A stretch of DNA of 64,000 nucleotides from Owenia fusiformis (lineage: Eukaryota > Annelida > Polychaeta > Sabellida > Oweniidae), in contig CAIIXF020000007.1 in the NCBI GenBank assembly GCA_903813345.2, positions 12,942,714 through 13,006,713 of the forward strand, given 5' to 3'. A program made the translations under genes and the position numbers. A model generated the notes under the pieces. That model made no database searches. It was given only the letters and a program-made list of their open reading frames with translations, and was not told where the DNA came from. Shown here one piece after another: positions 10,707-34,707 of this stretch. Each line of letters starts with the position of its first letter. Within the stretch, counting starts at the first letter, position 1.

Positions 10707-11142
10707 TTCTGCATTATTTTAATCCAGTCTAAAGTATCTTCAACGTATAAATTGCACTATTTCTCAACAATGTTTATCGCACTTTCGCGGTAAATTTTAG
10801 CAACAATAAAACCCCGCGAAATGTTCACAATTTGATTGGTTAATGTCTGCTTCCGGTTCAAGGTGGAAAAACTGAACGAAAAAGTATTGGTTGTGTTGTC
10901 CCGGGAAGATTTGACACTTGTGTTTGGTACCACTGCTGGAGATCTCTAGAGAGTACTTAACTCAGCCTGTCACAGATAAACAGATAAATAAGACTTATGA
11001 CAACCTGATAATACGTAGACAATATACATGAAAGTTTATAGGCCTAGTTGAATAAATATAAACAGAAAATTAGTTGAAAATTGTATTTCACCGACTGTCA
11101 CTTACAGTGGCTTTTCTTTTTTGGGCACCCATTTCACTCAAA
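10707..11142. promoter_or_regulatory. Divergent promoter interval between RIF1 and the dcd1-like hydrolase
   Basis: About 440 bp separate the RIF1 leader exon (minus) from the hydrolase ATG at 11143 (plus). The two genes diverge, so this segment must hold both promoters or a shared bidirectional one. I see no clear TATA box; 10.79-10.91 kb has several CpG dinucleotides compared with the surrounding DNA. The assignment comes from gene positions only. Confidence 0.4.
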
Positions 11143-14100: not shown

Positions 14101-17100
14101 AAAAGGTCAAAAAGGTCTGTTTTCAACTTGCTTCAAATTGACTAAAAAAAATTTCAAAATCATCTACGTGTTCTCAGAAATTCAAATCTGACTTTAGATT
14201 TGACTTAAGATTTGACATTTGACCTTCACTGACCTTCTCAATGTCAAAAAAGGTCAAAAAGGTCTTTTTTCAACTTGCTTCAAATTGACTAAATTTTTTT
14301 TTCAAAATCATCTACATGTTCTCAGAAATTCAAATCTGACTTTAGATTTGACATTTGACCTTCAATGACCTTCTCAATGTCAAAAAAGGTCAAAAAGGTA
14401 TTTTTTCATCTTGCTTCAAATTGACTAAACATTTTTTTCAAAATCATCTACATGTTCTCAGAAATTCAAATATGACTTTAGATTTGACTTTAGATTTGAC
14501 ATTTGACCTTCAATGACCTTCTCAAGGTCAAAAAGGTCTTTTTTCAACTTGCTTCAAATTGACTAATTTTTTTTTCAAAATCATCTACATGTTCTCAGAA
14601 ATTCAAATCTGACTTTAGATTTGACATTTGACCTTTAATGACCTTCTCAAGGTCAAAAAAGGTCAAAAAGGTCTGTTTTCAACTTGCTTCAAATTGACCA
14701 AATTTTTTTTTCAAAATCATCTACATCTTTTCAGAAGTTCAAATTTGACTTTACAAGTTCTCAGAAGTTCAAATCTGACTTTAGATTTGACCTTTGACCT
14801 TCAATGACCTTCTCAAGGTCAAAAAGGTCTTTTTTCAACTTGCTTCAAATTGACTAAAAAAAAATTTCAAAATCATCTACGTGTTCTCAGAAATTCAAAT
14901 CTGACTTTAGATTTGACTTAAGATTTGACATTTGACCTTCAATGACCTAACTAGGTGGTGACATTTTGTCATGTTAATGCCTTGTTAACCAATTGAGATA
15001 ATTTTGACGACTGAGTCTTTTTAATTGTGTTTTTAAATGTTACACTTAAAAACATGTACCATTTTTCTTGTGATGTTACACTTAAACGTGCAGGCCCGTA
15101 GCCAGAGGGCGAGCTGGGGGAGCGGAAGCTCCCCCCCCGGCTAGAAATTCTTTCAAAATCATGCAGTTTTTCACCATTCTGAGAATTGTTCGCATGATTT
15201 TTAGCCAAATTGTGAAAAAGCTCCCCCCTGGAAAAAAAGCTCCCCCTCCTGGTAAAAGCTGGCTACGGGCAAGACGTGTACCATGTTTCGTGCGATGTTA
15301 CACTTAAACGTGTACCATGTTTTTGTGATTTTCTAAATGTAATATGTTCCTAGTTTATAATTTTATCAGCAAGGGTTCCTGTTCTATGTTTGGTGCATGG
15401 GGCAAGGCAACCGGTGATAACTCTCTACTACAACTGAGGGCACTGGACTGGAATGTGGATGGTATGATCTAACTCAAATCAAATATTTACGCCGAACTAT
15501 AAATCCAATCCTTGAAGACCTGAATCAGTACGACACATATTCCACTCAAGTGAAGTAGATAATATAACAGATTTTGCATTTCATTTGGACAAAATGTACT
15601 TAACCTACTGATATATGAATATTTGTTATCAAAGGCCCATTCAAGGACTACCCCCAGGTGACTGTGTACCATCCGAGGGGAAATGGTAGTGTGGGTCAGG
15701 ACTTTGCTAATGTTGGATGGACAGGTTGGATCGGATCGATCCAAGGTAAATAAGAATCTACATGGATATATCGAATAGAAGGTCACTAATATACATAAAT
15801 AGTATCTAAAACAGTGTCTAACCTCCATCTACACAAATGATGGTCCACGTGTTTTCTGGTACAAATTGTCTTCAACTATCCCTCTAAATCCTCAAAGCGC
15901 AACTCCAACAAGTTATAAATTACGTGGAATATATCGTCTCTTTAAAATTGATAAATAATTTGGCAATGATACAAATATGTATCTTATGAGCTAAACACGG
16001 TGATCGAAATACAGTGAGACAACTAATACGTATCCTCCTGGGAAGACTTAAATCAAAATTCAGAAATATGATCATTATTTTCAGGTATGAATTCCAAGAA
16101 AATGGCTATTTCTGAGATTGGAGCTTCATTTCCAGATGCAACATTTGGTTCCGAGTCACGATTTGGAATTCCTTTTACGGTGAGTTCGAACTGCAGGAAA
16201 AGAAATAAATAGAAAATATGAGATAGTGACTTCAAAAATCTGTCTTGTTAATGTTCCAATATGGGCCCAATTTCTGGTTTAAGGGGCCCAACATTTTTCC
16301 CAGATTTGAAATCCCCCCCCCCCCTTTTTAGCTTCTGGATCCGCCAGTTTTCTGTTTCACAGTATGTATTTCAGTATTTACTAAGGGACATCCTACAATT
16401 CGACCAGACAATTGATGATTCTATAAACCGTATTGCCAACTCGAAACGTACATGTGATCTTATTCTAGGAGTTGGAGATGGGAAGGTAATGAATATACAC
16501 TCCCCTACATAAGTTTGCCAATCCGAAAACACCTTTTAGTTCACTTATCAAAGAATTTTTATGTAGGGAGTGTAAATACTCCGAGGCAAGAAGATGAATT
16601 CTCTCAATTTACACAAAATGGCCAATCACACTTGTTGCATGCTAAATTGTGTCTGTTGAACAGTTCGTGGACAAAAGGGGAAGGTGGCGAGGCATTTGAG
16701 ATAATATTGAATGAGTTGTCATTTTCACAGTTTCAAAATTGTTTTGGAAGATATTCTTAATTTCTTAACGCTGCTTATTCATTTTAAGCTAGGCGAATTC
16801 CGAGGTATTGAATATTCAGCCTCTGTTGCTAACTTCTATGATGATGAAAACCTCAAACCAGAAGCTGAATGGCATCCCAAGATTCAGAATGTTGTCTATT
16901 GGGGTAAGAAAAATATAGTAACATTGATTTCGATTCCGATTTGGAATTCCTTGACGAATGGCAGAAATTAGAATTTCCATGCATATCAGGGTAGTGGCAT
17001 TTGAACGTTCAAACTATACATGTTTGTTCATTATATATATTTTTATTTCTATAAATTCACATTCTATGTACAGGTCATATTTTACATAAACATGTTTTCG

Positions 17101-17647
17101 GCCGAAATAAGGATGGCAGCAGTGGTAGAATCTTATTATATTCTTTGTATACAGATTGATTACTATGCCATCTTTATTTATGAAAGGCATGGATTGGCTT
17201 TGTCCAGGATACAGTTCAGTACTTGCAAGACAACTGAACAAGTACCATGGCAACCTGGACGCTGGCTTCACCATACACGATGTAGTACCTATTGTACAGA
17301 CGGGAGACCTATTGGTTAACGTTTATGACCTTTCAAGGAATATAATGTATGTCTCGAATGCACGAGCCACGGGAGAAAGTGGCCCCCAGTTTGCCTATGA
17401 CAGGTGGTGCATCTTGTTTTTCAATATATACAAAATATACTCTTATTAACATAAAATTAATATAATATTATACAATTTTGAAACTCAGTTTTACCTACTT
17501 TTTTTAAAATCATGATGGAATATGAGCTCATATCTGCTGCCACTCCTGCATACCATATACCATCTAATTTTCCAATAACTTCTTTTCAGGCAATTTTTAC
17601 GGTTGGATATGGCACTCTTATTCAGTGAATCAGCACCTTTGGAATGA
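11143..17647 (+). CDS. Acid-ceramidase-like (dcd1A/dcd1B type) N-terminal nucleophile hydrolase, secreted/lysosomal
   Basis: Thirteen exons join in phase: 11143-11217, 11550-11682, 11945-12039, 12299-12369, 12536-12644, 12942-12976, 15370-15461, 15635-15745, 16085-16179, 16375-16485, 16789-16903, 17187-17403, 17590-17647; ~438 aa. Residues 1-20 form a signal peptide. Family blocks in order: GTPYEMGFAQGTLMK, GMADATGID, HMIGELTKGSCSMFGAWG, LQLRALDW, FANVGWTGWIGS, MAISEIGASFPDATFG, LLRDILQFDQTIDDSINR and YVSNARATGESGP. In the C45/Ntn fold the chain is cleaved before a catalytic Cys, here expected to be Cys177 of GSCSMFG. The substrate is probably an N-acyl amide lipid, but that is inference. Intron 1 has a GC donor (AAAG|GCAAGT); the nearby GT would give a stop. 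An in-frame upstream ATG at 11074 is a weaker start. AATAAA follows at 17712. Intron 6 carries the 13.5 kb repeat element. No lesion seen. Confidence 0.9.
13543..14986 (-). mobile_element. Helentron/pearl-like element with terminal hairpin and AGGTC-rich tandem core (copy A)
   Basis: One end is a perfect 11-bp-arm hairpin, TATGTCACCAC/GTGGTGACATA, at 13543-13569. Next comes a unique segment with TTGGCGTCCGGCGTCTG, then ~8-9 degenerate core units of roughly 110-170 bp. Each unit holds TCTACATGTTCTCAGAA, TCTGACTTTAGATTTGAC, TTGACCTTCAATGACCTT and CAAGGTCAAAAAGGTC. The other end is GGTGGTGACATTTTGTCA and ATTAACGCCTTGTT-like sequence at ~14.96-14.986 kb. A terminal hairpin, subterminal inverted GTCACCACC and a tandem core suggest a non-autonomous Helentron or pearl relative. 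No ORF. It lies antisense in hydrolase intron 6. Confidence 0.75.
15019..15345. repeat. ~40-bp short tandem units (GTACCATG...TGTTACACTTAA) split by a MITE
   Basis: Units containing ATGTTACACTTAAACGTG and GTACCATGTTT occur twice before and twice after the insertion at 15.09-15.27 kb. The insertion therefore landed within an existing short array. Intronic, no coding role. Confidence 0.6.
15091..15273. mobile_element. hAT-like MITE with CAGGCCCGTAGCCAG ends
   Basis: CAGGCCCGTAGCCAG at the left is matched in inverted orientation by CTGGCTACGGGCAAG at the right, about 180 bp away. Poly-C/G tracts lie near both ends. ACGTG flanks both sides and may be part of a target duplication. A solo remnant of the same end (CTGCCTACGGGCTTA) occurs near 37.83 kb. 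Confidence 0.7.
16496..16574. mobile_element. 79-bp MITE with TACACTCCCCTACATAA ends
   Basis: TACACTCCCCTACATAA at 16496 is inverted as TTATGTAGGGAGTGTA ending at 16574. Related ends occur at 29.57 kb and 54.70-54.87 kb. The TIR style (TACA-type start at a TA site) suggests Tc1/mariner. It starts 10 nt after hydrolase exon 10. Confidence 0.7.
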
Positions 17648-17711
17648 TGAACTATATCACCATTTTAATATTCAATTTAGACTGAACTCTTCCGATGTCC
17701 TTTTGGAACTC

Positions 17712-17717
17712 AATAAA
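17712..17717 (+). terminator. Poly(A) signal of the dcd1-like hydrolase
   Basis: AATAAA 65 nt downstream of the stop codon at 17647, the usual position for a 3' end. The VWA7-like gene converges on it from the right. Confidence 0.6.
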
Positions 17718-18153
17718 GAATATTGGAATAATGTGGAATCAAAAATTATTGCCATTATTCTTTGATAAATACTCCAATATCTATTGTATTATATAACTTT
17801 CTGAAGAAATCATGCATAAGATCCAATACAGTATCTGAGTTATATAACCAAATAGACACATGTATAACAACAGTATACGGCAACATTTGGAACTAATAGT
17901 GCCAAGTAGAAAATGTAAAATAATTGCATTTATCACTTATTGTGGCCAATTGGTTCAGGTGTAATTGTTTCATATGTAAATGTTCGGTCGCATTGTGCTA
18001 ATGAGAGCAAGTAGTATATCATAAATTTGCCCATAGTTAGACAAGGCGTGTCAAATTCTAGCCAATCAGAACACAGTATATCATGTAACTGCATTGCAAT
18101 ATATAACCAACAGCCCACCCAAGGTCATTTTTAGATTTCATCAATTTCCATAA

Positions 18154-18530
18154 GACTAGTCTCGGTTTAGAGAACGAAGATCATTAGTCTACTGCACGTT
18201 ACGCCTGCTTTGGACAATTTGATATTTTTACATATTGTAGATTTAAATGTCTTCTTTTGAATATCCATAATTTAATTGGGGTGATATTTCTATATTTTTC
18301 ATAAAAACTTATTAGCGCAGTATACTGATGAACCTCTTTCTCCAAATCGAGACTTTTATTGAATCGATCCACTGCACGTTACACCTGCTTCGGACAATTT
18401 TGATATTTTTACATCTTGTAGATTTAAATGTCCTTTCTCTTTTGAACATTCATAATTTAATTTGGGTGATATTTCTATATTTTTCAAAAAAAATATTAGC
18501 CCAGGAGACTGTTCTCCAAACTGAGACTCG
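18154..18530. mobile_element. Composite TIR element: one left end, two tandem body/right-end units
   Basis: The left end GACTAGTCTCGGTTTAGAG (18154) is inverted at CTCCAAATCGAGACT (~18338-18353) and again at CTCCAAACTGAGACTCG (~18513-18530). Between them a ~180-bp body (ACTGCACGTTAC...TTTGATATTTTTACAT...GGTGATATTTCTATATTTTTC) is present twice, at 18191 and 18371. It lies in the predicted 3' UTR or downstream flank of VWA7-like terminal exon 3. Confidence 0.75.
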
Positions 18531-18716
18531 TCCTTTCTAGTTGGCTGTTGTCTTTTCAGTGACATTGTATAAAATATTTTGCAATTTGTGAAAAGAATTT
18601 AAGCCCAAGACTCAATGCATTGTGGCTGATTCATTCCACTCAGGCGTTGTTTCCTAATCTTAGCAAAGTTTCAAACAACACCTTTGAGGAATGATAATCA
18701 GTCAGGGCTTAAATCC

Positions 18717-19304
18717 TTAAGTCATTCCAGCCTGAATGCAACATTGTAGACAGCATTGCCCCATACATTCAACGCATGACGTCATGCAACGCTCAAAATT
18801 GCAAGGTGTTTTACACGACATACACCTCCCGTTGGGATGCTCACCATTGATCGTAAAGGATTTCCTCTTTTTATAAACTACAACAGCTATTATGAAAACC
18901 AAAACAACCACAGTCAATACGGCCACAATTATACCAACCGTGGCCAAAGTACTGAGATTGGACGTGTTCTGTTTTTCCAGAGCTTTCACACACATCCCTT
19001 TATTTCCAGCCTTGTCTAGCACAATGATTGACACATTCGACTTGCAACAGGATATTTCATAGCTGATAATTTTCCGACTGGGCTCATCTTGGACAATGTG
19101 AATAATCTCAACCGATTCGTTAATAGTGATGTTTCCAATCCCCGAGTTATCATCCGTAAAGGTCGCATTAATGTTCCACTTGGTCTTATCACAAAATTCC
19201 TCTGTATTAAGGCAGTTATCAAAGTTAGAGGTATAGTAGCATACTGGGGGGTCAATGTCAATGTTTGATTGGCGGTAGAACACGGGAATCTCAAGATCAA
19301 TGTT
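18717..19304 (-). CDS. VWA7: VWA7-like alternative terminal exon 3 (cysteine-rich tail)
   Basis: Acceptor TTAATTCTACAG, phase 0. It starts NIDLEIPVFYRQ, then the same module (DPPVC, DDNSGIG, SCCKSNVSIIVLDKAGNKG). The membrane segment is about VGIIVAVLTVVVLVFIIAVV. The tail has KKRK and then about ten cysteines in the last ~35 residues (CMSCKTPC, CMTSCVECMGQCCLQCC). Such a tail could be palmitoylated or bind metal; neither is shown. A minus-strand AATAAA is at ~18.355 kb. Confidence 0.85.
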   Translation of the reverse strand, partial: NIDLEIPVFYRQSNIDIDPPVCYYTSNFDNCLNTEEFCDKTKWNINATFTDDNSGIGNITINESVEIIHIVQDEPSRKIISYEISCCKSNVSIIVLDKAGNKGMCVKALEKQNTSNLSTLATVGIIVAVLTVVVLVFIIAVVVYKKRKSFTINGEHPNGRCMSCKTPCNFERCMTSCVECMGQCCLQCCIQAGMT

Positions 19305-22300
19305 CTGTAGAATTAAAGTGCAAGTTTTATTTTATAAAACACAAACATGTTTTCTCCTTTTAACTTTGCCATCAAATATTAGCAAGTTCCTTCAATTTTA
19401 CTTAAATATGGTAATAGGCAAATCAACCAAACACATATAAAACGAAACATGAGACAAAGCAAAGAGACAAGACAAGACCAGGTATGTTATGGGAAATGAT
19501 TCATCTTTGTCCTTGACTATAAAATATTCTTCATTATAATAATGTTTTCTTTGAAGTCAAGTAAATTGACATAGATTGCCACAATTATTGAAATCCGCTA
19601 CGCTCGCCACTCTCCTTTGTGATATGCGGCCTTTTGTCTTGAAGATCCCTTTCCCTTCTTACACTTTGTATAAGTTATAAAAGCAACGATAACAGCTAGA
19701 AGAATGACAACCAATACACATATGATTATACCAATTATAGGTGTACCGCTAAAATCGAACGCACGTCTTAATTCCGCGCACGTGCCTTTATTTCCAGCCT
19801 TGTCTAATACAACTACTGAAACATCCTTTCTGCAACAGGATATTTCATAACTGAGAATTTTCATATAGGGCTCATCTTGGATTGTGTATATTTTGTCAAC
19901 AGGTTCGTCAATTATAATCTTTCCGATACCCGATTTGTCATCCTTAAAGGTGGCGCTGATGTTCCAGGTAGCATCATTGTAGTGGCATTCTGTTGCGTTT
20001 TTAGGACAGCTTTTATCGTCAAGGATAAGATAGCATTCTGGAGGCTCAAGATCAATGTTCTGCAGAATATAATCAACATACAAATAAAGCACAATAGCGC
20101 GACATACAATAAAGCACAAGTACATACTTTGGATGGTGATAATAATGATAATGATAATGAGAGGTTTCTAAGTTCCTTTAATTTTGATAAAGTAATAGGC
20201 AACTCCTGCTATTAGAGCTGCCACTAAGAGACACGATGCAACAATGACTATCGCTATCCCAGCTTTTGCTGCTGTAGACAGCTCTTGCGGATTAATATCT
20301 AGTTCTAGACTACATTTAGCGACATTGCCCACACCGTCACTAACTATAATCTCTACTCTATCCATACAACAGTCCCCGGTATATCCAACAAACATAGTAT
20401 CATTATACGTTGTTTTATCTAAATAGATCTCTGTTAGGTTAACCCCTATGGGTGAAAAGTCATAAATCCCTGATTTTGTATCGTTGAATATCATATAGCT
20501 CGTCCAGGTAGTGTTTATACATTCGGGGGTATTAGATATGTCTTCACAAACACTACTTGGTTGGATCTCGCATGTTGGCGCCTCATCGTCAATCTCCTGT
20601 AGGAAAACGACCAGTTTCATTTATGATTTCGTGACACATACAACAAACAAACAAGGCACTAACGTGACAAAATGTCACCACCTCGTTGTTAACAGTATTA
20701 TGAGTTCTAATCTTAGTCAACTTCTGAGAATTTGTAGCCAATCTTGAAATGAATAAAAAATTTGGTCAATTTGAAGCAAGTTGAAAACAGACCTTTTTGA
20801 CCTTTTTTGACCTTGAGAAGGTCATTAAAGGTCAAATGTCAAATCTAAAGTCAGATTTGAATTTCTGAGAACATGTAGATGATTTTGAAAAAAAAATTAG
20901 TCAATTTGAAGCAAGTTGAAAAAAGACCTTTTTGACCTTTTTTGACCTTGAGAAGGTCATTGAAGGTCAAATGTCAAATCTAAAGTCAAATCTAAAGTCA
21001 TATTTGAATTTCTGAGAACATGTAGATGATTTTGAAAAAAAGATTTAGTCAATTTGAAGCAAGATGAAAAAATACCTTTTTGACCTTTTTTGACCTTGAG
21101 AAGGTCATTGAAGGTCAAATATCAAATCTAAAGTCAGATTTGAATTTCTGAGAACATGTAGATGATTTTGAAAAAAAAATTTAGTCAATTTGAAGCAAGT
21201 TGAAAAAATACCTTTTTGACCTTTTTTGACTTTGAGAAGGTCATTGAAGGGCAAATGTCAAATCTTAAGTCAAATCTAAAGTCAGATTTGAATTTCTGAG
21301 AACACGTAGATGATTTTGAAAATTTTTTTTAGTCAATTTGAAGCAAGTTGAAAACAGACCTTTTTTGACCTTGAGAAGGTCATTGAAGGTCAAATGTCAA
21401 ATCTTAAGTCAGATTTGAATTTCTGAGAACACGTAGATGATTTTGAAAAAAAAATTTAGTCAATTTGAAGCAAGATGAAAAAAGACCTTTTTGACCTTGA
21501 GAAGGTCATTGAAGGTCAAATGTCAAATCTAAAGTCAAATCTAAAGTCATATTTGAATTTCTGAGAACATGTAGATGATTTTGAAAAAAAGATTTAGTCA
21601 ATTTGAAGCAAGATGAAAAAATACCTTTTTGACCTTTTTTGACCTTGAGAAGGTCATTGAAGGTCAAATATCAAATCTAAAGTCAGATTTGAATTTCTGA
21701 GAACATGTAGATGATTTTGAAAAAAAAAATTTAGTCAATTTGAAGCAAGTTAAAAAAAGACCTTTTTGACCTTTTTTTACTTTGAGAAGGTCATTGAAGG
21801 GCAAATGTCAAATCTTAAGTCAAATCTAAAGTCAAATTTGAATTTCTGAGAACACGTAGATGATTTTGAAATCTTTTTTTAGTCAATTTGAAGCAAGTTG
21901 AAAACAGACCTTTTTTGACCTTAAGAAGGTCATTGAAGGTCAAATGTCAAATCTTAAGTCAGATTTGAATTTCTGAGAACACGTAGATGATTTTGAAAAA
22001 AAAATTTAGTCAATTTGAAGCAAGATGAAAAAATACCTTTTTGACCTTTTTTGACATTGAGAAGGTCATTGAAGGTCAAATGTCAAATCTAAAGTCAGAT
22101 TTGAATTTCTGAGAACATGTAGATGATTTTGAAAAGAAAATTTAGTCAATTTGAAGCAAGTTGAAAAAAGACCTTTTTGACCTTTTTTGACTTTGAGAAG
22201 GTCATTGAAGGTCAAATGTCAAATCTCAAGTCAAATCTAAAGTCAGATTTGAATTTCTGAGAACACGTAGATGATTTTGAAAATTTTTTTTAGTCAATTT

Positions 22301-25300
22301 GAAGCAAGTTGAAAACAGACCTTTTTGACCTTTTTTGACCTTGAGAAGGTCATTGAAGGTCAAATGTCAAATCTTAAGTCAGATTTGAATTTCTGAGAAC
22401 ACGTAGATGATTTTGAAAATAATTTAGTCAATTTGAAGCAAGTTGAAAACAGACCTTTTTGACCTTTTTTGACCTTGAGAAGGTCATTGATGGTCAAATG
22501 TCAAATCTAAAGTCAGATTTGAAGGTCAAAAGTCAAATCTAAAGTCAGATTTGAATTTCTGAGAACATGTAGATGATTTTGAAAAAAAATTTAGTCAATG
22601 TGAAGCAAGTTGAAAAAAGACCTTTTTGACCTTGAGAAGGTCATTGAAGGTCAAATGTCAAATTTAAAGTCAGATTTAAACTTCTGAGAACATGTAGATG
22701 ATTTAGAAAAAAATTGAAGTCAGTCTAAACAGTATTTGTTAAGTTATAGGAAGTTGTAAGAAATTGTTACAGACGCCGGACGCCGGACGCCAACCACCAA
22801 CCGCCGTCGCAAAAAAACGGAGACCATAACAATATGTCACCACTTTTGGTGGTGACATAACAAAAAACTTTTAGCAGTCAGCATGTGCCTCTTTAAAATT
22901 CTGCTGATCAAAACCCCCAAAAAAAACAATGAATGATTATATATTTTTCTTAATATATCCTTTCTGTCTGCAATAGTGACAAATGAAAACGAACAAATTC
23001 TATTTTAAACTGGTATTTACTTTTACAAAATGTGTGTTCGGTGATCCTTTTGATGTTCACTCTTGCCACATATAGTCAAATTGATGTTCAAATATGTCCA
23101 AATCAAAATATAGTCATGTTGATGTGGCTGATGATATGAATGAGCATGTAAGCAGGCAAAGAGTGCTAGCCTGCATTCCCATCACGTCAGCATGCACCCA
23201 TGCATATAAACGCAAAGAAATAAAACTGCTCTATCAAGTTTACCATGCATTGCTTCCTTCCCCCAATAAAAGACGAGGGGAACTGATAGAGCATTTACGA
23301 GCAGGTAGCTTCTCTAAAGAAGACAATAAATAAGGTTCATCCGCAGAAATTTCCAGAGACGTATTTATTTCCCTATAGGGGTTAACCAGCAGAGATCAAT
23401 CTATTCAATGCACGTGTATGCAGTTTTTATTAGGAACATAAGCCCATGCACATGTATGCACATGAAGCATAACAGTAAATGTTCACGTGTACATTTTGAT
23501 TTGATGGCATGCTTGAAAAAGATAAATGTATCCTTTTATTACCAAATGAGAAGCTTCAAGATGTGAAGAGTTATAGAGAGTAATAATGCTCTTAAATATG
23601 AGATTAATTAAGGGGACGTGTTCAAATCTCAACATATGCGAGAGAGTGCAATTAATAGCCTGGGAGAGATAAAGTAGATTTTCCCCTTCTTTGCAGTTTG
23701 CTAATATTTTCTTCACATTAATGTCCAACACATTTTTCGTATCTTTTGTAGGAGGTTGAATGGAAACCCAAAACGAATGTAAATCATATATTTCTGCTGC
23801 GTTTGAACACGACCCTTTAAGAAACACATTTCATGCATTCTTATAGCTTTCTCATCTATTCTAAGACAGCTTTTTACCTGCACTGCTACAATAATGTCAA
23901 ATATGAAGTAGTTTGTCATGATCACTCCTGTCTCAGCGGATGTTGTGACAGTGATGGTGTTAACTGTACCCAGGGGAGTGTTTTCAGGGACAGTTACTGC
24001 AATAGTGCCGGTCTCCGAGGATTCTTCACCAAGAGTCATTCTGGGAAATAAAACGTCAATCAAGATTTCTGCCAAACTAACTTTCAATAAATTTAAAAGC
24101 AAGCACAAACATGAGAATAACAATGACGTCCTCTTTTAATAAAAAAACAAACATGTATAGTTGTGAAGGAGTAGAGATCAGTTTATACTCGTAGAGTTGA
24201 TTTACTTTACTATCTGTAGGCCTCATTTTAAAATCTAACCATAACATCAAACAATATTTCATAATACCTGTACGGTTCAACCATTTTAGTGAATCTCTCC
24301 GAGTCAACCGCTTCCACTTTAAACACTGCAGATGGACCAAGATTCTTAACTTCGTATTCTATTATGGCTGTCTCTCCGGGCTCCAGAGTCAGCGAGCTAT
24401 TTCTGGCTGTATTCCAACGTACTACAATTGTGGACACCGAGAGAAGCTCAGGAAGCATTCTTTGAACTCTTTCCAAGGAATTGTCTTTCCCATACATCAA
24501 GACTCGGAAATCTGTAAAGTGCATTTTGTATGTGGTTTATCCCGGCAATGGCACCATTGATTGAGAAATAGGGATCAAAGCCAGTATGACTTTTGCGTTT
24601 TTGGACGATTGTGCCGGTTTTGCGAATGCATGTTCACATGTTGATACCCTCATAGACTTTTACATTGGGTTCTGCCGTCCCACAACATTTGAGACTGAAT
24701 ACTTTATCGTGTACTACTGCAACTATTTATGATGTCAAGAGCGTTGCAAGTATTTTTGTTCTTCGAATAGTACCGTATTATTTAGGTATGGGTTAAATGT
24801 TCATAGCCTTGTGGTTTTGGATTGTGATAATGTTTCCTAAAAGGTGGTCATGTATTTGAAAGACATTGTTTCTTTTTGCAATAAGATCATATGGGATTTT
24901 GGGGTTTTGTTTTTTCTGGTTACTGGTTACCCTTTTACATTTTTGCATACTGTTCTCTAATACCGTTTGATATTTCCCCTTAAAGCACTGATCCTTACAT
25001 ATTTATCTAAATACTTTTTGAATTATTTTAGACTTATTTCAATCATTGGTTATAGTTTCCTTGTATTGCCTTGTATATTATGATTATTTTCCAAAATGTT
25101 AATAGAAATGTTGTTTTTGGTTTACCAGGGATAATTGGATTTTAAAACATTATTTACAATGGGTTATAAAGTGAATTGTGTCACTCCATTGTGTACTAAC
25201 AAAAGATCTCATGAAATTATAAATATGTTACATCGAAAAGGTTCAATAAATGAATTGACATTTAAGATTTCTGATGGCATATTAAATAAACCTTACCCTT

Positions 25301-28300
25301 AGAAGGTAGCATTTCATTAGCAGAATAGAGAATATCTGTAGTATTCTTCACAGGGACATCTTTGAGAACAACCCCTTCCTGGGTAATGAACTGAATCCCC
25401 TCAACCAGCGTAATCCAGTCATCGTTAGTTTGATCCAGCAGGACCAAGATTGTTGTGTTACCACCTGATAGAGAGAAACGTATTTATATGGTTGGAGTGA
25501 GACTCGTTTACTTTAGTCACTTGACATTTTAAATGACTTCACGTCACGAATCAATTAACTTAGAAAAAATGGATGAATTCATTTCTATGGAAGCATCATC
25601 TTGGCTGTTATCTCATTAAGTGCCAGTGATTCCCATTACACGGGGTATCAAATCATCGGGGTATCAAATGAATCAAGATGTACTGATCCAAAATTGAAAG
25701 CAAATAGGGACAACTTAGATTAAACAAAAAGTCATGTCATACCTGTTGTTGGTTTTCCATCAATCTTTCTCCAGCCTTGATGGGGAGAATTTGGCTTCTG
25801 GTCCACAAATTTAACATTCATGTCTACGTAACTCTTTGCAGTCACCTGAAACAGTTAATTTAGCTCATGTAACGCAAACTTAACATTCACGTCCACGTAA
25901 CTCTTTGCAGTCACCGGTAACAGTCAATTTACCCCATGTAACGCAAACTTCACTCATGTCCACGTAACTCTTTGCAGTTTTCACCTGCAACAGTCAATCT
26001 AGCTCATGTAACGCAAACCTAACAGTCATGTCGACGTAACTCCTGCAGTCACCCGTAACAGTCAGTTTAGCTCATATAACGCAAACTTAACATTCACGTC
26101 CACGTAACTCTTTGCAGTTATCACCTGTAACAGTAAATTTAGCTCACGTAACGCAAACCTAAGATTCACGTCCACGTAACTCTTTGTAGTAACAGTTAGT
26201 ACCAAGTAGTCTTAATATACTGTTCTGTTTTTAGTCATATAAATCCGACCGCCGTATCCTGTTATTTGTTGAACAAGGAACATCGAAGAACAGCATACAG
26301 CGGTCGGATTTATATCACTACGTTTTTGTGACAGGCCTTTGGAGTTCGGTGTTTGGCGTCAGCGTCTCTAATTTATTACACAACTACACCATTTAAAATA
26401 GCTCATCAGATGCTTGTTAATAATGGTCAAGAAAATGATGCTACCTTGAGGTTATATTTAGCTGATGATGAGGTAGTCACCTCCCATAGTCCAGTCTCGG
26501 GTGAGGTCAGCTTGTAGATCACAAAGTTTGGCAGGTCTGTGATCTTAGATGGTTCAGTTGTTTTATCTACACAACACAACAAAATATATACAGCTTTTGA
26601 TTTCACACATTTACTTGTTTCTTTTTGTTATTTTTCTCTTTCAAAAATAAGGTTAAATACGAGTATGGTTGCCATTGATCCCCAATGCTATACCTTGGGA
26701 AACTAGAATTAATAATTTTGAAATATTGTCTCTCTAAAATTCGTCTCTTACATCAAATAAAGCTACCCGGGAAGCTACCCCATACCTTCTGTTGATTTAA
26801 CATCTACTGTGCCTAGAGGGTCAAATGAGCTGACTTGGACATAGACCTCAGACACCGACATATCAACTGGGAATGTCTTTGTCCCACTCACTCCTTCCAC
26901 TTGATATATCAGCACCTACAGAATAATACACGAGTGTCAAAACCTCGTAATCAGATGAAGCTCTCTTTTAAAGGAGTGAGTCAAAACTATTAGAAAGGGA
27001 AACAATCCATGGTATGAATAACAAAGACACAATTTGTTCAAATCTTTTTATTTATCAGTCTCACTTTGTCATCATCCATACCTCTGAACTCTGCAATGAT
27101 ATATCAATGACCCTTGTGATTTCCAGAACATCAGTCTTATTAGCATCTATGATCTGACCCCCAGTGGCAGCTGATATGGGCAAATAGTCAGCAATCACGG
27201 TGGGGACTCGCTCGGCATTATTACCAGTATAGGATACGAGAAAATTTAACTGGAAATTAAAATGTTTGATTAATCAATAATGAGATATGCATGATTAATA
27301 AAGGGGTGTGGTTGATTATGGAATATTTATCTGATTAATAAGAAACGTATGTATTTGAGGAATATGGTGTTACCTTGACATCTTTTTCTTTAGCTTGAGC
27401 TATCACATGGTCTGTAAGATTAGTATCATGAGCTGGCGCGTCGGTCATGACAAAACAACTAGATCCTGAAACCAAAGAACCATGGTCAGGAATCAGCAAT
27501 CAAGGCACAACGAACAATATTTTGATGTAGCCACTTTAATCAAAAATTAAAGCTCAGGACTTACTGAATTTTGATGATTTTGAACCACCTAAATCTTGCT
27601 TTCAGACTGAATGAGTGCGGTTGAACGAAATCAAAGTTTAGGATACAAGACATAGGTGGATATATCATCCCAAAATCAACTGGAAAATCAACAAACAAAC
27701 GAATATACAGGGTGACCGGAAAAAAAGGAGACCATTGAAGTAATCAATTTCTCCTAAACTAGACAAGTGCCATCAATGAAATTTTGCATACACTGGAACA
27801 GTTATATGGAAATTTGTTACTGAAGGTTTCAATACAAGCATTCAACTGGTTCAGGAGCTATGATCATTTACATAACATGCTCCAAATAGGCACAATTGAG
27901 ACCAACGCAGAGTTGGATTCATATGGCAAACTACCCTTACATGTTCTGCCCTCTATGGCATTATTATGGCATTACATATAGCAGTGATTGCCTTCTTTAG
28001 GTCAACAATAGTCTGAGGATTGTTTTGGTATAGAGTGTCTTTCAAATATCCATACAAAAAGAAATCAGCAGGATTCAAGTCTAGGCTGTAATGGCAATGA
28101 AGGGTTATCTGACATGTGGTTCATCATCCTGTTGCCAAAGTGCTGATTTACCCAATCTTAAGAGTCACTTTAGGTATTGGGCATAGTGCCATGTTACTAA
28201 AACCACTATATGGCACAATTAAATCCCATATGGAAACCAAGGGCTGCCCAAAACCTCCTTAGGATGATACTGTAACTGAGTGGGACCACTGAGTCAGAAG

Positions 28301-31300
28301 CCATAGGTCAGATAAGCTTCGTCTCCATACACCTCAAATTTGAATCCACCTGATTTCTTTTTGTGGGGCAATTTGAAAGACAATGTGTACCAAAACAATC
28401 CTGAGACAATTGCTGACCTAAAGGTGGCAATAAATGCTAAATGTAATGCCATAACAAGGTCGGAATATGTGAGGGTATTTGCCAAATGTATCCAGCTCTG
28501 CGTTGGTCTCAATTGCGCCTATTTGGAGCATGTTATGTAAATGATCATAGCTCCTGAACCAGTTGACTGCTTGTATTGACACTTTCAGGAACAAATTTCC
28601 ATAGAACTGTCCTGATGTATGCAAAATTTCATTGATGTCACTAGTCTATTTTAGGAGATATTGCCTATTTCAATGGTCTCCTTTTTTTCCGGTCACCCTG
28701 TACAAAAGGCAAACTTACAAACAAACATACACACAGGACTTTATTTATGCTAAGGATAAACAGATCTATTCAAATCAATTTACCTTTCTGTACATGTTGC
28801 AAAGCCAGGCTGACCCCACTTATTGCATACTCTCTCCAGTCATTTCCTCCAGCTGCCTCTAGTTCGTCCAGGTAGACTAAGAACTCATCGGGGTCCCTTG
28901 TCACCTGGGCTGGACCATACTCTGGAATGCATTCCTTGTTAACAATTGGTCAGCTTACAAAATAAGATGCAGCACTTGTCCTGCATATAGCGTTTGTGGT
29001 ATTTTATTTTGAGTAATATGAAAAATAGTACCTGGATCATTAAATGGAACAAGGACGTAGTTGTAAGGTTTGTAACTAGATTTGGCCCTCTCTTCTACTA
29101 TCTGTTTGCTCCGAGATTTGGCAGCTTCAATATCTGCAGCCATGCTGCCCGTGGTGTCAATAACAAAGCACAGCGATGTGCCAAAGCCCAGGTTTAGGTA
29201 CTGGCTGTATACTTCATCTCCTCTCGCCTCTCTGATACCATCCAGGAACTCTTCAGTTGCCAAAGCAGCAACATCAGCAGCCTGTGGTTATAAAGGATTA
29301 CATTTAGGATTTTGTCGAAATAACGCCCATTCGTTAGATCTCGCAGGTCGTACCATTGATGTTCTTTTTAATCTAATTCAGAAGCTGATATGGATGATAT
29401 GCTTGATTCCCTTTTAACGATGTATGTTCACCATTGAATGATAAAAAACAACTTATTTGTAGTTTTTATCATCTAACGTTCAACATGTGTACTAGATCAA
29501 ACATTGATAGGCTTTGATATGCATTCCAATAAAAGCTTCCAGTTGCTAACCTTATGGAGGGGAGTGTATGTCGTACCTGGTGATGCAAATAGTGATGCGG
29601 TGACCATAGAAACAGTGCAGAGTCTTTGTTGATGCCTCCTTTGGCGGGGGTATCTTTAGATGTGATATCAATCTGACCGCCGTGACTACATTTACCTGCA
29701 GGAAAGCAATACAATTATTAAAGGTTGGACTTTTTCGTAAACAATGCAATAGAATTAAGTGGACTATAAAACCTGAATATCCGAAACTACGATAAGACAA
29801 CCACCTCTTCTCATGCAACTTATCACATTATAAATCGAGATTTCTCTGAAAATTAAAAAAACGCATGATCATCCTAATTTTATCCATTACGGTTGGTGCA
29901 ACAGAATTAAAATTGGAGTCCCAGGTAAAGAGACGATGGCCATCTTATAGGAAAGCATTTAATGGAACGATAATCTTGATTAAAGGATTGGTATCGATAT
30001 GGTGATCTTAATTCAACAATGTTTTCTCTTAAACCAATTATTGAAAACATTCTGTAAAAAAACACGGTCTTTTATGCAATGTCGACTGATTGGCAATAAT
30101 TTAACGCGAAAATTATTTATATATATCACTGTTTTTGTTAACATTTTTGGGGGTTTAGTGCGAATTGTTTATTGTTCCTTTCTACCAATTTTGAGAATAA
30201 AATAAAATATCTTGGTTGATTTAACAAGTATTAAAGGAATTAAAACAAAAAATAGATAAAAATTATATTATTACAAATGAAATGGTGACCATTAGATTGA
30301 CGATGTGTAAAATTTTCAGAATTTTTTGATGACTGGTTTAAGAGAAACGTGTGTTCAAAAAGTTCACCATATCGATACCAATCCTTTCTCATTTGGGAGA
30401 ACATTGGATATACTTGTTTTGGTTGGTATAATAATGTGAAGACAAAATATCTAAATCATGTGATAAAACAAATATCCAATTTACTAGTATTCTATTTAAA
30501 ATTGTAATCTCTAAAATCTTTAACCTTTCATTGATTTTTAACTAATAAAATAAGTACAGAGTCTGGTCTAGCTAGAGTGATATTAAGATACCTTCATCAC
30601 GCAAACTATATATTTGCCACCAAATCTAGACATACAATTCACATGCTAAACCTCATCATTCATAAAACTGTAAAAAACTAATGGATAAGGCCAAGGTAAT
30701 AAAAATGACTGTTTCATGACGTGTTCAATATATCAAATATATGATAATTTTCGTTTTTAAGAATTTGCCTTTTAGAAAATATTGATGTGCCTGAGATGAA
30801 TCATATAATCATCGTCACTTGTATGTTTCACAGTTCAAGATTAAAAGGTATATATCAATACCAAGACCCTTTATTGACCGAGAACCCAATTTAATTAATT
30901 GCTCAGTAACTTGGCCTTATTTAAACTAAACTGCAGGATGAAACAGTTGATTCGATTGTTGTTAAGGCCAGCTGGACATATAGTCGTTATAAAAAGAAAT
31001 GCCATGCTTCTGATTAGAGTTTACCATAGATTACTCATTTTCTCCGCATTCGTGACTTTAAGCTTGATGTACATGGGGAAACAGTGTAACGAATCATTGA
31101 ACACTTGGAGTCAGGAGACATCTGGATCTCAATACGTTCCAAATGAGATCTTCCAAAATGATATCAATGTAAAGGAAAGGACGATCATCTTATTTTGGAC
31201 CAACTTCTTCGGGAAGCCATTCCCGGTGACTGGATCCGCCATGTTTGAATCTTGCCCCGTTTCTACATGTGAGATAACGACCAATAGGAATAGGATCCGC

Positions 31301-34300
31301 GAAGCAAATGCGGTTGTATTCCACACATGTAGGACAACTGATCTCAACCCCTTTGACCTCCCGACATATAGGGACAATACCCAAAAGTGGATATTTTATT
31401 GTAAGGAACCTCCAAATGAGGCCATGCTTCAAGTGCATCAAAGCCTCAAAGGGATATTCAACTGGACAATCACTAATCAGTTTGACTCTGATGTGCCTTT
31501 CCCTCATGGTTTCTACGTGATGAAGGGCACCAATGACATGCCATTCAAGGATTACGCCCATGGAAAACCACGATTGGTAGCTTGGGTAGTTAGTCATTGT
31601 AACACATCAAGTAAGAGAGAGGAATATGTGAAAAAGTTACAGAAATACATCAAAGTGGACATATACGGCAAATGTGGAACAAGAATCTGTCCACGTAATT
31701 GTCTTGAATTTCTAGGTAAGTTTTTCACTAGTTCATTTTTGTACCATCGTGGGACAGCATAAAAGTAATGACATGATGTATTCTTCGTTGTCTCTTAAAT
31801 TCCAGTTTTGATTTCTATTTTGATTTATTATTTTTCCAGGGGTGCGTTATAAATTCTACCTGGCCTTTGAGAATGCCGATTGCCAGGATTACGTCACAGA
31901 AAAGGTCTGGAGAAATTCCTTTAAATTCAACATGGTGCCAATAGTACGAGGGCGTCGCAATAACTTTAAGAACATCCTGCCACCATACTCCTATATACAC
32001 ACTAATAAGTTTGATTCACACGAAGAACTAGCTCAATATCTAAAGTACTTAGACAACAATGACGATGAATATAACAAATATTTTGAATGGAGGAAAACAT
32101 TTATAAGCTTTAACAGTGCTCAATTCCCGTATTACTGTTCACTTTGTAGACAGTTGCATATGAACAAGGGCCAGAAGAAATGGTACAACGATATATGGAA
32201 ATGGTACTCCATAGAAAAGCAATGCAATGACTACACTTCAATGATACCTGAAAATATAAATGATTGATGACCATTCTTCACATCTTCTCTAACTTCAGAT
32301 ATCTGATGGTTGTCTCTCTGAGTAAATGAAGACGTGAAATTCATTTAGTCTAAAATCTAAAATCTTAAGACATTTCAGATTTGCACGTACCGAAATATCA
32401 AAACGTTATTTTGTAAATAATATGAATAAATACGTATGTATGATTATATTATAATGACTGTTGGTCAGTCTTAAATTGCCACGGTCATGTATCGTTTAAG
32501 TGCTTCTCAAGAAAAATTCGCAAATGTAAATTCTGTAAAGAAAATTGTACATTTAATATCCTTTTCTATTCTCTAAAGGTTATCAACAATACTGATATAC
32601 CATTCTGATACTCATAGCATCTTTCTGTTTCACATGAGGGCTCAGAAGAAATGAGATGTCATGGTCTATCAACAATACTGATATACCATTCTGATACTCA
32701 TAGCATCTTTCTGTTTCACATGAGGGCTCAGAAGAAATGAGATGTCATGGATTATCAACAATACTGATATACCATTCTGATACTCATTAGCATCTTTCTG
32801 TTTCACATGAGGGCTCAGAAGAAATGAGATGTCATGGTTTATCAATACTGATATACCAATAATACACTTTGTAATGCAACAATAAAGCGTACTATGACCT
32901 TGACTGTTTTATAAATAATGTTAGAATCTGCAATAAAATCATGTTACTTTCTTATATTTTATGAGTTATGAATAATCGTCAGGACCTCTCCCAATAATCA
33001 TATGTTTTAAATATATGGTTTAAAGGCTCGTTTGCAGTTTAAACTCAGTAAAGACAAAACATAACAAATAGCAGGTAATAAGCAAATAGCAATGTGACTG
33101 TGGTCTACATAGTTTTAAATGTTACTAGACCTCTGTTTTTATTTTTGATGTAATTTTATGAATATAGATTACTATTAATTGAAAGATAAGGGAGTTGTGG
33201 ATGAGTCTTATTGGATTTATTAATATACAAGTACGTATATACAGATAGGATTATACCGGACAAAAGAACTGTCTTTTGTTTTACCTGGCCAACCTTAATA
33301 ATGGGCTCATTTTTGGTCATGAAAATTAATATCAGTCACTTTAAAAGATACATGGATTGGACAACATTTTCTCACCCTCTTTCTTGGGTACCTCTACACC
33401 ATTGCCATCCTTTTGGGGTCCGCCTATCAAACTAGATAGAGCAAAGAAGCCACTTGTGAGCAGGCCTCTTCTATTAATACTCTCTATAATGTTGTCATAG
33501 CAGGTCATATCTTCACATTCGAGACACGTGTCTTCATCTGGTGACACAACCTCTCCAACAGATCTAGCTACAGCTGGAACGAAAAAAGACTCAAATTAAT
33601 TTTATAAAACGTTGAAATTAAGCAAACTAACAAACTAAGGTCAGGGTAACAAAGGTCAGATGGAAAGGCTAGTCACCAAGGTTTCTGTTTGAAAACGTAA
33701 AGGTCAATGTCATCAACGCTAGCCACCTATTCTGTTTGAAAACTCTTAGGTCAAGGTTTTCAGACAAGGGCAAAAATTAGTTACCAAGGTTTCGGTCATC
33801 AAAAGCTCTCGCACTTATTCTGTTTGAAAACGTCTCAGGTCAAGGTCATCAAACAAAGGTAATCAAACAAGGTCAAATGAGTGACAATAGCTAGTCACCT
33901 AGGTTTCTGTTTGGCTCTGTATTCCCCATCTCAATCCAGTTCGAATGACTATAGAAATCCTGTAGGGTGTGCATCAGTTGGCCTGTCAGCTTGCGGGCAG
34001 ACTGGAACTTCTCCGCATCAAGGGCAGCTATAACAGCTACAATGGAAGGCAGATCTTTAAACAACACATCAACATAGTTTGTACTTGTAAGGACATCCAT
34101 CTTGACATTAATATTCTATAAACGTACATACACGTCCTTTGCTTATATCTACTGTGCAACAAGAGTACAATAACGTATAATATCTAATATTGTTTTTTTT
34201 TATAAAAACTAAATTATTGATTGTACATGAACTTGACCCGTATACGTTACCTTGTCGTAATCTTATCAAGCGATCGTTTGCCAAATCAAATCGTTCCGCA

Positions 34301-34707
34301 TCAAAGTGAGCAGAAGGGAGATTGCTAGTAACTTCATCCGTGTCCACCTCTCCATTAGCATCACTCATCTCTTCTATAGCGTTCTTAAATTCCTTGGATG
34401 ACACATCATCTCCAAAATAAGCCTGTATTAGTTTCTTTGCTGTCAATTCGCCATTGACCTCGATTGGGTCGCTGTCGGGGTGTGGGTTCTCCTGGAAGAA
34501 TCTCAATGCGCTTTTAAGGATCCCCTTTTCTGTGATCTCAATGTGGGTTTGAGATGCAGTATTAGAAAATAACTCCCTAAGACGATTTGGGATAAATCCA
34601 TTGATCACGCCTATGTTAAGTAATAGAAATACAACAAATATGGACTTCCCCATGTTCATGTTTGAGTTAACCTGACACACAAAACCGTTTAGTGAGATAC
34701 TCTTCAT
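18717..34707 (-). CDS. VWA7: VWA7-like von Willebrand factor A domain membrane protein with three alternative C-termini
   Basis: Shared exons: 34707-34246, 34115-33899, 33573-33376, 29695-29577, 29281-29032, 28921-28784, 27465-27374, 27249-27082, 26915-26786, 26566-26445, 25845-25743, 25464-25297, 24511-24268, 24040-23878 (858 codons, phase 0 at the end). One of three terminal exons then follows. A signal peptide starts at M1 or, more likely, M17/M19. Residues ~40-330 match the VWA7/G7c N-terminal region (THIEITEKGIL, HFDAER, LQDFYSHSNWIEMG, LLTSGFF, KCSHGG, GGINKDS, SPHHYLH). The vWA domain begins ~365 with MIDAS DTTGSM at 374-379, then VLVPFNDPG and FVMTDAP. Beta-rich modules follow. Expected topology is type I surface protein; ligand unknown. 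The exon 1 donor is the least certain junction. Intron 3 houses the fucosyltransferase; the 20.65 kb repeat lies before the terminal exons. Confidence 0.9.
19598..20059 (-). CDS. VWA7: VWA7-like alternative terminal exon 2 (basic tail)
   Basis: Acceptor TATTCTGCAG, phase 0. It encodes NIDLEPPEC, then a module with DDKSGIG, SCCRKDVSVVVLDKAGNKG and several N-glycosylation sites. A hydrophobic stretch (IIGIIICVLVVILLAVIVAF) precedes a ~25-residue basic tail (TKCKKGKGSSRQK...). A minus-strand AATAAA lies near 19.33 kb. Close paralogue of terminal exon 3. Confidence 0.85.
   Translation of the reverse strand, partial: NIDLEPPECYLILDDKSCPKNATECHYNDATWNISATFKDDKSGIGKIIIDEPVDKIYTIQDEPYMKILSYEISCCRKDVSVVVLDKAGNKGTCAELRRAFDFSGTPIIGIIICVLVVILLAVIVAFITYTKCKKGKGSSRQKAAYHKGEWRA
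20168..20596 (-). CDS. VWA7: VWA7-like alternative terminal exon 1 (short cytoplasmic tail)
   Basis: The acceptor TTTTCCTACAG opens at 20596 in phase 0, matching the shared exon ending at 23878 (VAVQ|). It encodes 142 residues and a stop. An extracellular module begins EIDDEAPTC, with a central DCCMDRVEIIVSDGVGN block and NxT/NxS sites. A membrane segment (AGIAIVIVASCLLVAALIAG) follows, then a tail of only about eight residues, KIKGT at the end. It is homologous to, but most diverged from, the next two exons. No AATAAA is seen before terminal exon 2, so its 3' end is unexplained. Confidence 0.8.
   Translation of the reverse strand, partial: EIDDEAPTCEIQPSSVCEDISNTPECINTTWTSYMIFNDTKSGIYDFSPIGVNLTEIYLDKTTYNDTMFVGYTGDCCMDRVEIIVSDGVGNVAKCSLELDINPQELSTAAKAGIAIVIVASCLLVAALIAGVAYYFIKIKGT
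20650..22859 (+). mobile_element. Helentron/pearl-like element with terminal hairpin and AGGTC-rich tandem core (copy B, longer)
   Basis: Same family as copy A, opposite orientation. It begins ACAAGGCACTAACGTGAC and AATGTCACCACC and carries ~14 core units of about 105-170 bp. It ends with the CGCCGGACGCC segment and the hairpin TATGTCACCAC/GTGGTGACATA (22833-22859). Units alternate between ACATGTAGATGA and ACACGTAGATGA subtypes, in blocks that repeat at larger scale (e.g. ~21.0-21.5 against ~21.55-22.0 kb). It lies in the last VWA7-like intron, antisense to the gene. Confidence 0.8.
25815..26200. repeat. ~70-85-bp tandem array grown from the start of VWA7-like exon 11 and its acceptor
   Basis: Five to six imperfect units each contain CCACGTAACTCTTTGCAGTCACC (read as two overlapping words) and GCTCATGTAACGCAAACTTAAC. 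On the minus strand each unit repeats the first codons of exon 11 (VTAKSYVDVNVKF-like) plus its upstream intron. Some copies retain a CAG acceptor and others have lost it. Confidence 0.85.
26233..26319. mobile_element. Small foldback element with ATATAAATCCGACCGC arms
   Basis: ATATAAATCCGACCGC (26237-26252) is exactly inverted at 26300-26315, with imperfect extension inward (TAT.CTGTT). A ~50-nt loop lies between. Probably a MITE remnant in a VWA7-like intron. Confidence 0.6.
27707..28705. mobile_element. Degenerate Tc1/mariner-like element, partly palindromic
   Basis: TACAGGGTGACCGGAAAAAA at the left is inverted as TTTTTTCCGGTCACCCTGTA at the right. Beyond these ends ~270 bp on each side are inverted copies of each other, so the same peptide (e.g. 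WFRSYDHLHNMLQIG) reads on the plus strand at ~27.85 kb and on the minus strand at ~28.55 kb. The middle holds a plus-strand DDE_3 C-terminal fragment (PDFFLWGNLKDNVYQNNP, 28340-28540) and a minus-strand GDEAY fragment. No intact transposase. Confidence 0.8.
29460..29568. mobile_element. Solo end of the TACACTCCCC MITE family
   Basis: The sequence ending GCTAACCTTATGGAGGGGAGTGTA at 29568 (given as two words: GCTAACCTTATGG, AGGGGAGTGTA) matches the right end of the 54.7 kb copy, including AACTGGAAG inside. The opposite terminus is not found. On the gene strand it begins only 9 nt after VWA7-like exon 4. Confidence 0.55.
30938..32267 (+). CDS. Alpha-1,3-fucosyltransferase, GT10 family, Golgi type II membrane protein
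   Basis: Transfers fucose from GDP-fucose to N-acetylglucosamine or glucose units of glycans in the Golgi lumen. Two exons, 30938-31715 and 31840-32267, join in phase (G|GG) to give 401 aa. The N-terminus is a short basic cytosolic stretch with a signal anchor around residues 35-55 (LLIFSAFVTLSLMYMG). The GT10 catalytic blocks are LVAWVVSHCNTSSKREEYV and VDIYGKCG, then FYLAFENADCQDYVTEKVW and FKFNMVPIVRG at ~265-292, the family's donor-binding signature. Cysteines near the end (CSLCRQLH) fit the usual disulfides. An upstream acceptor (CTGCAG) sits just before the ATG, so an untranslated exon may exist. The gene lies entirely within VWA7-like intron 3, on the opposite strand. Acceptor specificity cannot be predicted. 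Confidence 0.93.
32581..32859. repeat. 86-bp tandem repeat, 3.2 copies, in fucosyltransferase 3' UTR
   Basis: Units start at 32581, 32667 and 32753, with a partial fourth at 32840. They are nearly identical (TATCAACAATACTGATATAC...GAAATGAGATGTCATGG). The array lies between the stop codon and the AATAAA at 32881, so it should be transcribed. Confidence 0.92.
32881..32886 (+). terminator. Poly(A) signal of the fucosyltransferase
   Basis: AATAAA about 610 nt after the stop codon, directly after the 86-bp array. A second AATAAA lies near 32932. Confidence 0.55.

Follow-up and report, generated by a model that had tools for sequence, protein, structure and literature searches.

The stretch of DNA analysed here (the window, 64,000 nucleotides of contig CAIIXF020000007.1 of the annelid Owenia fusiformis, GenBank assembly GCA_903813345.2, positions 12,942,714 to 13,006,713 of the forward strand) carries on its minus strand, between 34707 and 18717, one gene of the VWA7 type. 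We rebuilt 14 shared exons of this gene from donors, acceptors and phases. Downstream of the last of these lie three tandem terminal exons, A, B and C, each of which starts in phase 0 behind an AG and stays open to its own stop codon (3/3; coordinates of all gene features are collected in Table 1). Joining exon 14 in silico to A, B or C gave in all three cases (3/3) one frame with a single, terminal stop.

The three exons are homologous to each other. When exon C was used as the query against the 498-Mb genome, in a search whose matches come exon by exon and in which weak ones may be missed, it retrieved B (E=8.8e-35) and A (E=7.4e-7); exon A as the query retrieved C (E=3.3e-7) and B (E=0.003). 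Given the C–B and C–A E-values, the observation of three related exons is real and not due to chance, and all three (3/3) are homologous tandem terminal exons in the same phase, each with a stop. No other genome copy of the shared module was found at E up to 10 with C and A as queries (B was not run), and within the 64-kb window nothing beyond A, B and C scored better than E 0.13.

The homologous part is a module of about 100 residues with the invariant positions I, D, P, C, C, W, F, D, SGI, V, D, Y, CC, V, V, D, GN and C; the module of exon C has 13 extra N-terminal residues and a second NID start. Each exon further encodes one strong hydrophobic segment (best 19-residue Kyte-Doolittle means of 2.97, 3.66 and 3.64 for A, B and C, respectively) and a tail. 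Tail A comprises only about 6–10 residues, ending in IKIKGT/KIKGT (a KxKxx-type end), while tail C contains 10 cysteines in 52 residues. At the DNA level the cytoplasmic tails of exons B and C are no more alike than expected by chance, as 292 of 300 shuffles equalled or exceeded the observed alignment score. The spacers measure 108 bases between A and B and 293 bases between B and C. An earlier, sequence-only reading of this DNA had given the positions, phases, AG acceptors, open frames and stops of the three exons, all of which we recovered as claimed; it had also assigned each exon one membrane helix and a different tail, which the hydrophobicity profiles and the comparison of tails B and C bear out. 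Its description of the module as D..PP.C with a CC motif stands as regards the homology of the three modules and the invariant CC; exon A, however, reads D..AP.C (DDEAPTC).

Upstream of the cluster, shared exons 2–14 form a single continuous frame with zero stops once joined. The spliced protein matches the Pfam models VWA7_N (PF25107; E=2.8e-66, 223.6 bits against a cut-off of 27.5), VWA_4 (PF25106; E=1.9e-48, profile positions 1–169 of 169), GBD_Hemicentin (E=2.4e-14) and Ig_VWA7 (E=2.1e-14), the last three likewise above the Pfam cut-off. The DTTGS in exon 5 is presumably a MIDAS-like (metal-ion-dependent adhesion site) motif. By this domain content the predicted gene product is a VWA7-type protein, and the architecture supports the VWA7-like half of the label "VWA7-like receptor" that the gene had been given. 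VWA7 itself seems to have been little studied: it is named in 69 papers of the open-access literature searched, and among the 25 listed none carries it in the title. At the join of exons 1 and 2 (34100–34251) the strong donor at 34251 (score 10.3) is in phase 1 and no fitting acceptor was found for it, and the model therefore uses the phase-0 donor at 34246, which scores only -0.2; a small exon may have been missed here, or the site may be unusual or the sequence in error. Since exon 1 encodes a hydrophobic leader and one helix lies near the end, the encoded products are most likely type I membrane proteins that share a head for adhesion or sensing.

By the genome searches, which may miss weak matches, the gene is single-copy, the sole VWA7-like gene found in the 498 Mb. 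All four VWA7_N matches (4/4) are exons of this very gene, as is the only Ig_VWA7 match (1/1); of the six VWA_4 matches, three lie in this gene, two on C6 and one on C11. The 699-residue core protein gave 15 matches, 13 of which are the gene's own exons, and the remaining two are distant ones on C6 (36% and 44% identity; E 9e-6 and 0.025), in a gene that one might guess to be hemicentin. A second VWA7 gene in the genome was considered and rejected, as VWA7_N and Ig_VWA7 match this locus only. A genome search with PF00092 yielded 156 matches from the best 150 of 685 candidates, which was too broad, and it was left unused.

The module of the terminal exons is likely immunoglobulin (Ig)-like, as judged from predicted structures. 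The fold models were built from three-row alignments of the same three sequences and are not independent of each other; that of module C has a mean predicted local distance difference test score (pLDDT) of 72, with two of the five models poor (54 and 38), and that of module A a mean pLDDT of 77. The predicted fold is a seven-stranded sandwich, and the strand order of C and A agrees in 84 of 98 compared columns. Foldseek gave weak matches, the best at E 0.012 for C and 0.0049 for A and all of them above 0.001; those for C are of several kinds, among them non-Ig chains such as the Sec5 Ral-binding domain, ammonia monooxygenase and alpha-amylase. A second structural comparison, made with model A only, gave a best Z of 8.7 with a root-mean-square deviation of 2.1 over 85 aligned residues, and the rows shown were, by title, antibody, major histocompatibility complex, butyrophilin and receptor chains. 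At this level the module is likely to have its arrangement in common with Ig domains, which falls short of kinship to them. No Pfam model exceeds its cut-off in exons A, B or C. Below threshold, DUF7743 matches B (E 0.0042) and C (E 0.046) and CENP-B_N matches C (E 0.0039), with none for A at E up to 1, and NCBIfam returned zero matches to the module at E up to 0.1. Ten sequence matches in the PDB (E 0.038–0.37; nine to Ras-related GTP-binding protein C and one to a serine-rich adhesin) were taken as chance.

The codon comparison of the three exons is informative for B and C. Over 149 codons the pair has a synonymous divergence (dS) of 1.06 and a nonsynonymous divergence (dN) of 0.41, with a dN/dS of 0.39 that averages both copies at near-saturated dS, and the corresponding ratio of uncorrected proportions, pN/pS, is 0.56 (bootstrap 0.42–0.77). 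For the module alone, at 55% identity, dN/dS is 0.34 and pN/pS is 0.47 (bootstrap 0.31–0.69). With a dN/dS of 0.39, a dS near 1 and both frames intact, B and C look as if they had both been kept by selection on the protein. In a simple neutral simulation, run with substitutions only and on exon B only, the frame survived in 3 of 2000 runs with 0.53 substitutions per site, and in 26 of 2000 with 0.25. Comparison of A with either B or C is saturated at synonymous sites, so that the case for selection on A comes from its open frame and its codon usage: with exons 2–14 as the training set, the log-odds exceed zero in the stated frame (A 0.25, B 0.14, C 0.08), while all five remaining frames of each exon give values below zero. 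From these comparisons the module would be the more constrained part, the tails having diverged beyond recognition.

Traces of how the cluster may have arisen are also visible. Between B and C lies a relic of the end of exon A, at a site chosen after a weak blastn hint, with a local alignment score of 37 that none of 500 dinucleotide shuffles reaches (best shuffle 33). In the simplest history, a segment reaching from the end of A across B would have been copied in tandem, which leaves the order A – B – (end of A) – C. Under this history the cluster would have grown at least twice by tandem duplication, the last of which copied the end of A together with B to produce C. No such similarity was found between the downstream flanks of B and C (218 of 500 shuffles as good). 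The acceptor of C and the bases next to it are nearly identical to those of B (Table 1), while the two exons are otherwise about 63% identical over aligned codons; the chance of such a match is about 0.0002 at ~63% identity and 0.015 at 77% (the best-matching stretch), uncorrected for the picking of the place. C seems to have received the start of exon B by later local copying, 39 bases upstream of an older C start.

Taken together, the homology, the shared phase and the constraint argue that A, B and C probably form a tandem alternative-last-exon cluster, in which one vWA (von Willebrand factor A) head would have three anchors and tails, used one at a time. The spliceosome would join the shared phase-0 donor at 23878 to one of the three phase-0 acceptors per transcript, and the choice of A, B or C would set the membrane-proximal module, the anchor and the tail. 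Because A and B have a stop and lack a strong in-frame donor, exon choice would also fix the C-terminus. The three products, all type I membrane proteins, would share the head (VWA7_N, vWA, galactose-binding-like and Ig_VWA7 domains) but differ in anchor and tail. At 9.1, the score of the exon 14 donor is within the range of the training donors left out one at a time (2.6 to 10.7). The acceptors of A, B and C score 4.3, 7.0 and 7.8, ranking 14, 4 and 3 among the 243 AG sites from exon 14 to 18600. Each exon has a candidate poly(A) signal (Table 1); if that of B were used, polyadenylation of B and splicing to C would be mutually exclusive, as the signal lies so close before exon C. A minisatellite at 20750–22677 (12 copies of a 136-base unit, or 6.4 copies of a 284-base unit) takes up a large part of the intron that separates exon 14 from A; as a guess, its length may vary and influence which last exon is reached.

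A number of observations weigh against a cluster with three exons in use. The acceptor matrix was trained on only the 12 acceptors of exons 3–14, whose own scores, left out one at a time, span -2.1 to 10.3; of the three acceptors under study, that of A has the lowest score; and two AGs outscore them all, one at 23659 and one at 19829, inside B. Only 108 bases separate A from the acceptor of B. The poly(A) candidates are weak, because the hexamers are common here (0.56 and 1.06 per kb on this strand for ATTAAA and AATAAA). In the one test made of RNA pairing, the first 300 intron bases paired with the 108 bases before each acceptor no better than did shuffles (75, 182 and 29 of 200 shuffles as good for A, B and C). 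The averaging in the B–C comparison and the saturation of A count here too, as does the remainder of B and C, since over stalk, helix and tail their pN/pS of 0.70 (0.49–1.04) is indistinguishable from 1. It is unlikely, though worth taking seriously, that only one or two of the exons are in use and that the other is a recently silenced copy whose frame is not yet broken. The low rank of acceptor A (14 of 243) would fit such a copy, decay has a precedent in the broken relic of the A end within the cluster, and the use of the three junctions is read from sequence. A silenced copy would, however, have to have kept its frame, and the frames are intact over 142, 153 and 195 codons where a neutrally evolving exon B survives in 3 of 2000 runs; moreover, the B–C dN/dS of 0.39 lies below the 0.5 or more that would be expected had one copy drifted freely.

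The spacing of the exons bears on a different explanation, which we consider improbable: that at least one of them, most of all B, serves additionally or exclusively as the body of a short gene of its own, made of a leader, an Ig-like module, a helix and a tail. Exons with 5′ ends of their own had been named in the sequence-only reading as what would undo its interpretation. They are unlikely with spacers of just 108 and 293 bases and with all three exons sharing phase 0 with the exon 14 donor; B nevertheless has an in-frame upstream ATG with a hydrophobic leader. Its frame is open for 36 codons upstream through the acceptor, and the ATG at 20125 is followed by MYLCFIVCRAIVLYLYVDYILQ, which is leader-like. 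The frame of A likewise has an ATG eight codons upstream (MKLVVFLQ), and as a control an in-frame upstream ATG was found in only 1 of 12 internal exons (exon 13, with a five-residue prefix); these points add to those against the cluster. The prefix of A, however, lacks the length of a signal peptide, exon C lacks an upstream ATG altogether, and the leader of B is the translation of a pyrimidine-rich tract that ends in a good acceptor (rank 4 of 243). Because such a tract before an acceptor would give hydrophobic residues anyway, the leader of B is most likely due to chance. Hardly to be expected is a chain of modules, in which A and B would have internal donors and some transcripts would carry two or three Ig-like modules before one anchor. 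The GT at 19930 in B scores 8.9, like real donors, and a low score is not decisive, our own exon 1 model using a donor of -0.2. Yet this GT and the best one in A (20335, score 5.5) are both in phase 1, and joins from them to the phase-0 acceptors of B or C would shift the frame; of the phase-0 GTs in A the highest-scoring reaches 0.8, and the six best of B include none in that phase.

Other features of the window lie in and around the gene. Inside the intron between exons 3 and 4, on the opposite strand, is a fucosyltransferase gene (Glyco_tran_10_N and Glyco_transf_10; 30941–32264, plus strand). The intron between exons 6 and 7 holds, at 27709–28700, a stretch bounded by inverted repeats (CAGGGTGACCGGAAAAAAAGGAGACC and its complement) that by eye looks like a DNA transposon. 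A 72-base tandem repeat (5.5 copies, 25806–26190) overlaps exon 11, and the intron before this exon repeats its acceptor and first bases several times, giving a row of decoy exon starts. Downstream of exon C, at 18180–18560, a sequence of about 190 bases occurs, by eye, twice in tandem. Further off are an exon with a GHL10 glycosyl hydrolase-like 10 match (39783–40592, plus strand; Pfam E=1.4e-47) and an exon with a double-stranded RNA binding motif (58295–58639, minus strand; Pfam E=2.8e-8).

Table 1. Predicted features of the VWA7-type gene and its terminal-exon cluster (positions in the window).
Feature	Position	Strand	Remarks
Exon 1	34246..34707	-	hydrophobic leader, VWA7_N part 1 (Pfam VWA7_N 1-63); 3′ end uncertain, 34246 or 34251
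Exon 2	33899..34100	-	VWA7_N match; 5′ end uncertain
Exon 3	33376..33573	-	VWA7_N
Exon 4	29577..29695	-	VWA7_N
Exon 5	29032..29281	-	vWA domain start; VWA_4 E=8.6e-18; DTTGS
Exon 6	28784..28921	-	vWA
Exon 7	27374..27465	-	vWA
Exon 8	27082..27249	-	in frame
Exon 9	26786..26915	-	in frame
Exon 10	26445..26566	-	in frame
Exon 11	25743..25845	-	in frame
Exon 12	25297..25464	-	in frame
Exon 13	24268..24511	-	Ig_VWA7 first half
Exon 14, last shared exon	23878..24040	-	Ig_VWA7 second half (E=3.3e-7); phase-0 end CAG/gtaaaa
Terminal exon A	20168..20596	-	142 codons; likely Ig-like module, helix core 20257-20201, very short tail ending KIKGT, stop
Candidate poly(A) signal for A	20177..20182	-	ATTAAA, just before A stop codon; weak
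In-frame ATG and 22-residue hydrophobic stretch	20060..20125	-	directly upstream of B, spanning its acceptor; chance translation of the pyrimidine-rich tract, or possible leader of a short product from B alone
Terminal exon B	19598..20059	-	153 codons; likely Ig-like module, helix core 19738-19682, basic tail of ~25 residues, stop
Relic of exon A end	19384..19424	-	between B and C; putative duplication footprint
Candidate poly(A) signal for B	19326..19331	-	AATAAA, 22 bases upstream of exon C first base; weak
C acceptor and first 15 exon bases	19290..19313	-	23/24 identical to same place of B
Terminal exon C	18717..19304	-	195 codons; likely Ig-like module, helix core 18932-18876, cysteine-rich tail of ~52 residues, stop
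Candidate poly(A) signal for C	18355..18360	-	AATAAA, downstream of C; weak

Parts of this arrangement are familiar from other genes. The protein resembles VWA7 in combining the VWA7 N-terminal and Ig-like domains, the VWA_4 type of vWA domain and GBD_Hemicentin; it differs in its extra Ig-like module, helix and tails, which match no Pfam model above cut-off. In Drosophila PGRP-LC the swapped part is a recognition domain on a constant anchor, whereas in the present gene the exchange would affect the membrane-proximal module, the anchor and the tail, the head staying unchanged. Drosophila Dscam exons 17.1 and 17.2 are internal exons followed by a shared tail, and they are two alternatives, in contrast to three terminal exons that each bring a module, a helix, a tail and a stop. 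Tropomyosin 1 is a cytoskeletal protein without a membrane anchor, and its C-terminal swap is short. A keyword search of the open-access literature retrieved no terminal cluster with a module, an anchor and a tail per exon on a VWA7 head. Tandem duplicated, mutually exclusive terminal exons are already described (PMC9013439); the Drosophila genes to compare are PGRP-LC, with its mutually exclusive 3′ variable regions, pip and CG42235. The present locus is like PGRP-LC in that a shared upstream part is joined to one of several alternative 3′ regions, and like pip in that homologous, mutually exclusive terminal exons are tandemly repeated (PMC9013439); it is unlike PGRP-LC, for which competing RNA pairings are reported, in that none were seen in our one test. 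The Dscam alternatives exchange the membrane domain, as the exons here would, and are tied to dendrite or axon location (PMC2566808). Similarly, tropomyosin 1 has a set of alternative terminal exons, 9a–9d, that comprise coding sequence and 3′ untranslated region and give C-termini differing between tissues (PMC8419188). Within the literature searched, tandem duplicated last exons and the exchange of membrane exons are thus known already, and what is new is a module, an anchor and a tail per exon on a VWA7 head.

As to the role of such a cluster, the three exons have most likely been retained as different means of sorting or anchoring one head, since the module appears more constrained and the tails have diverged beyond recognition. 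The sequence-only reading had proposed at least three surface proteins with one vWA head and interchangeable signalling or anchoring ends. The VWA7 architecture, the phase-matched homologous exons and the constraint on B and C speak for the three proteins, while a signalling role of the tails is unsupported; we favour sorting or anchoring over signalling because of the KIKGT end of A, the cysteines of C and the analogy to Dscam. According to a review on plants, KKXX and KXKXX are among the best-characterised COPI-binding dilysine motifs, and an end of the KXKXX form is one that departs slightly from the canonical dilysine form (PMC12331695). The cysteine-rich tail of C is a possible lipid attachment site. 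A more specific version, which we put forward as a doubtful one, is that exon choice acts as a compartment switch, by which A would be recycled to the endoplasmic reticulum and early Golgi, B would be a plain surface form, and C would be lipid-modified and clustered in membrane domains.

The locus would provide a clear case of tandem duplication adding complete, stop-bearing last exons to a gene. Three matched membrane ends on one head would also amount to a ready-made experiment on the function of the membrane-proximal part and the tail. If the compartment switch is true, the choice among three tandem last exons would decide whether one and the same head, adhesive or sensing, is stored, displayed or clustered.

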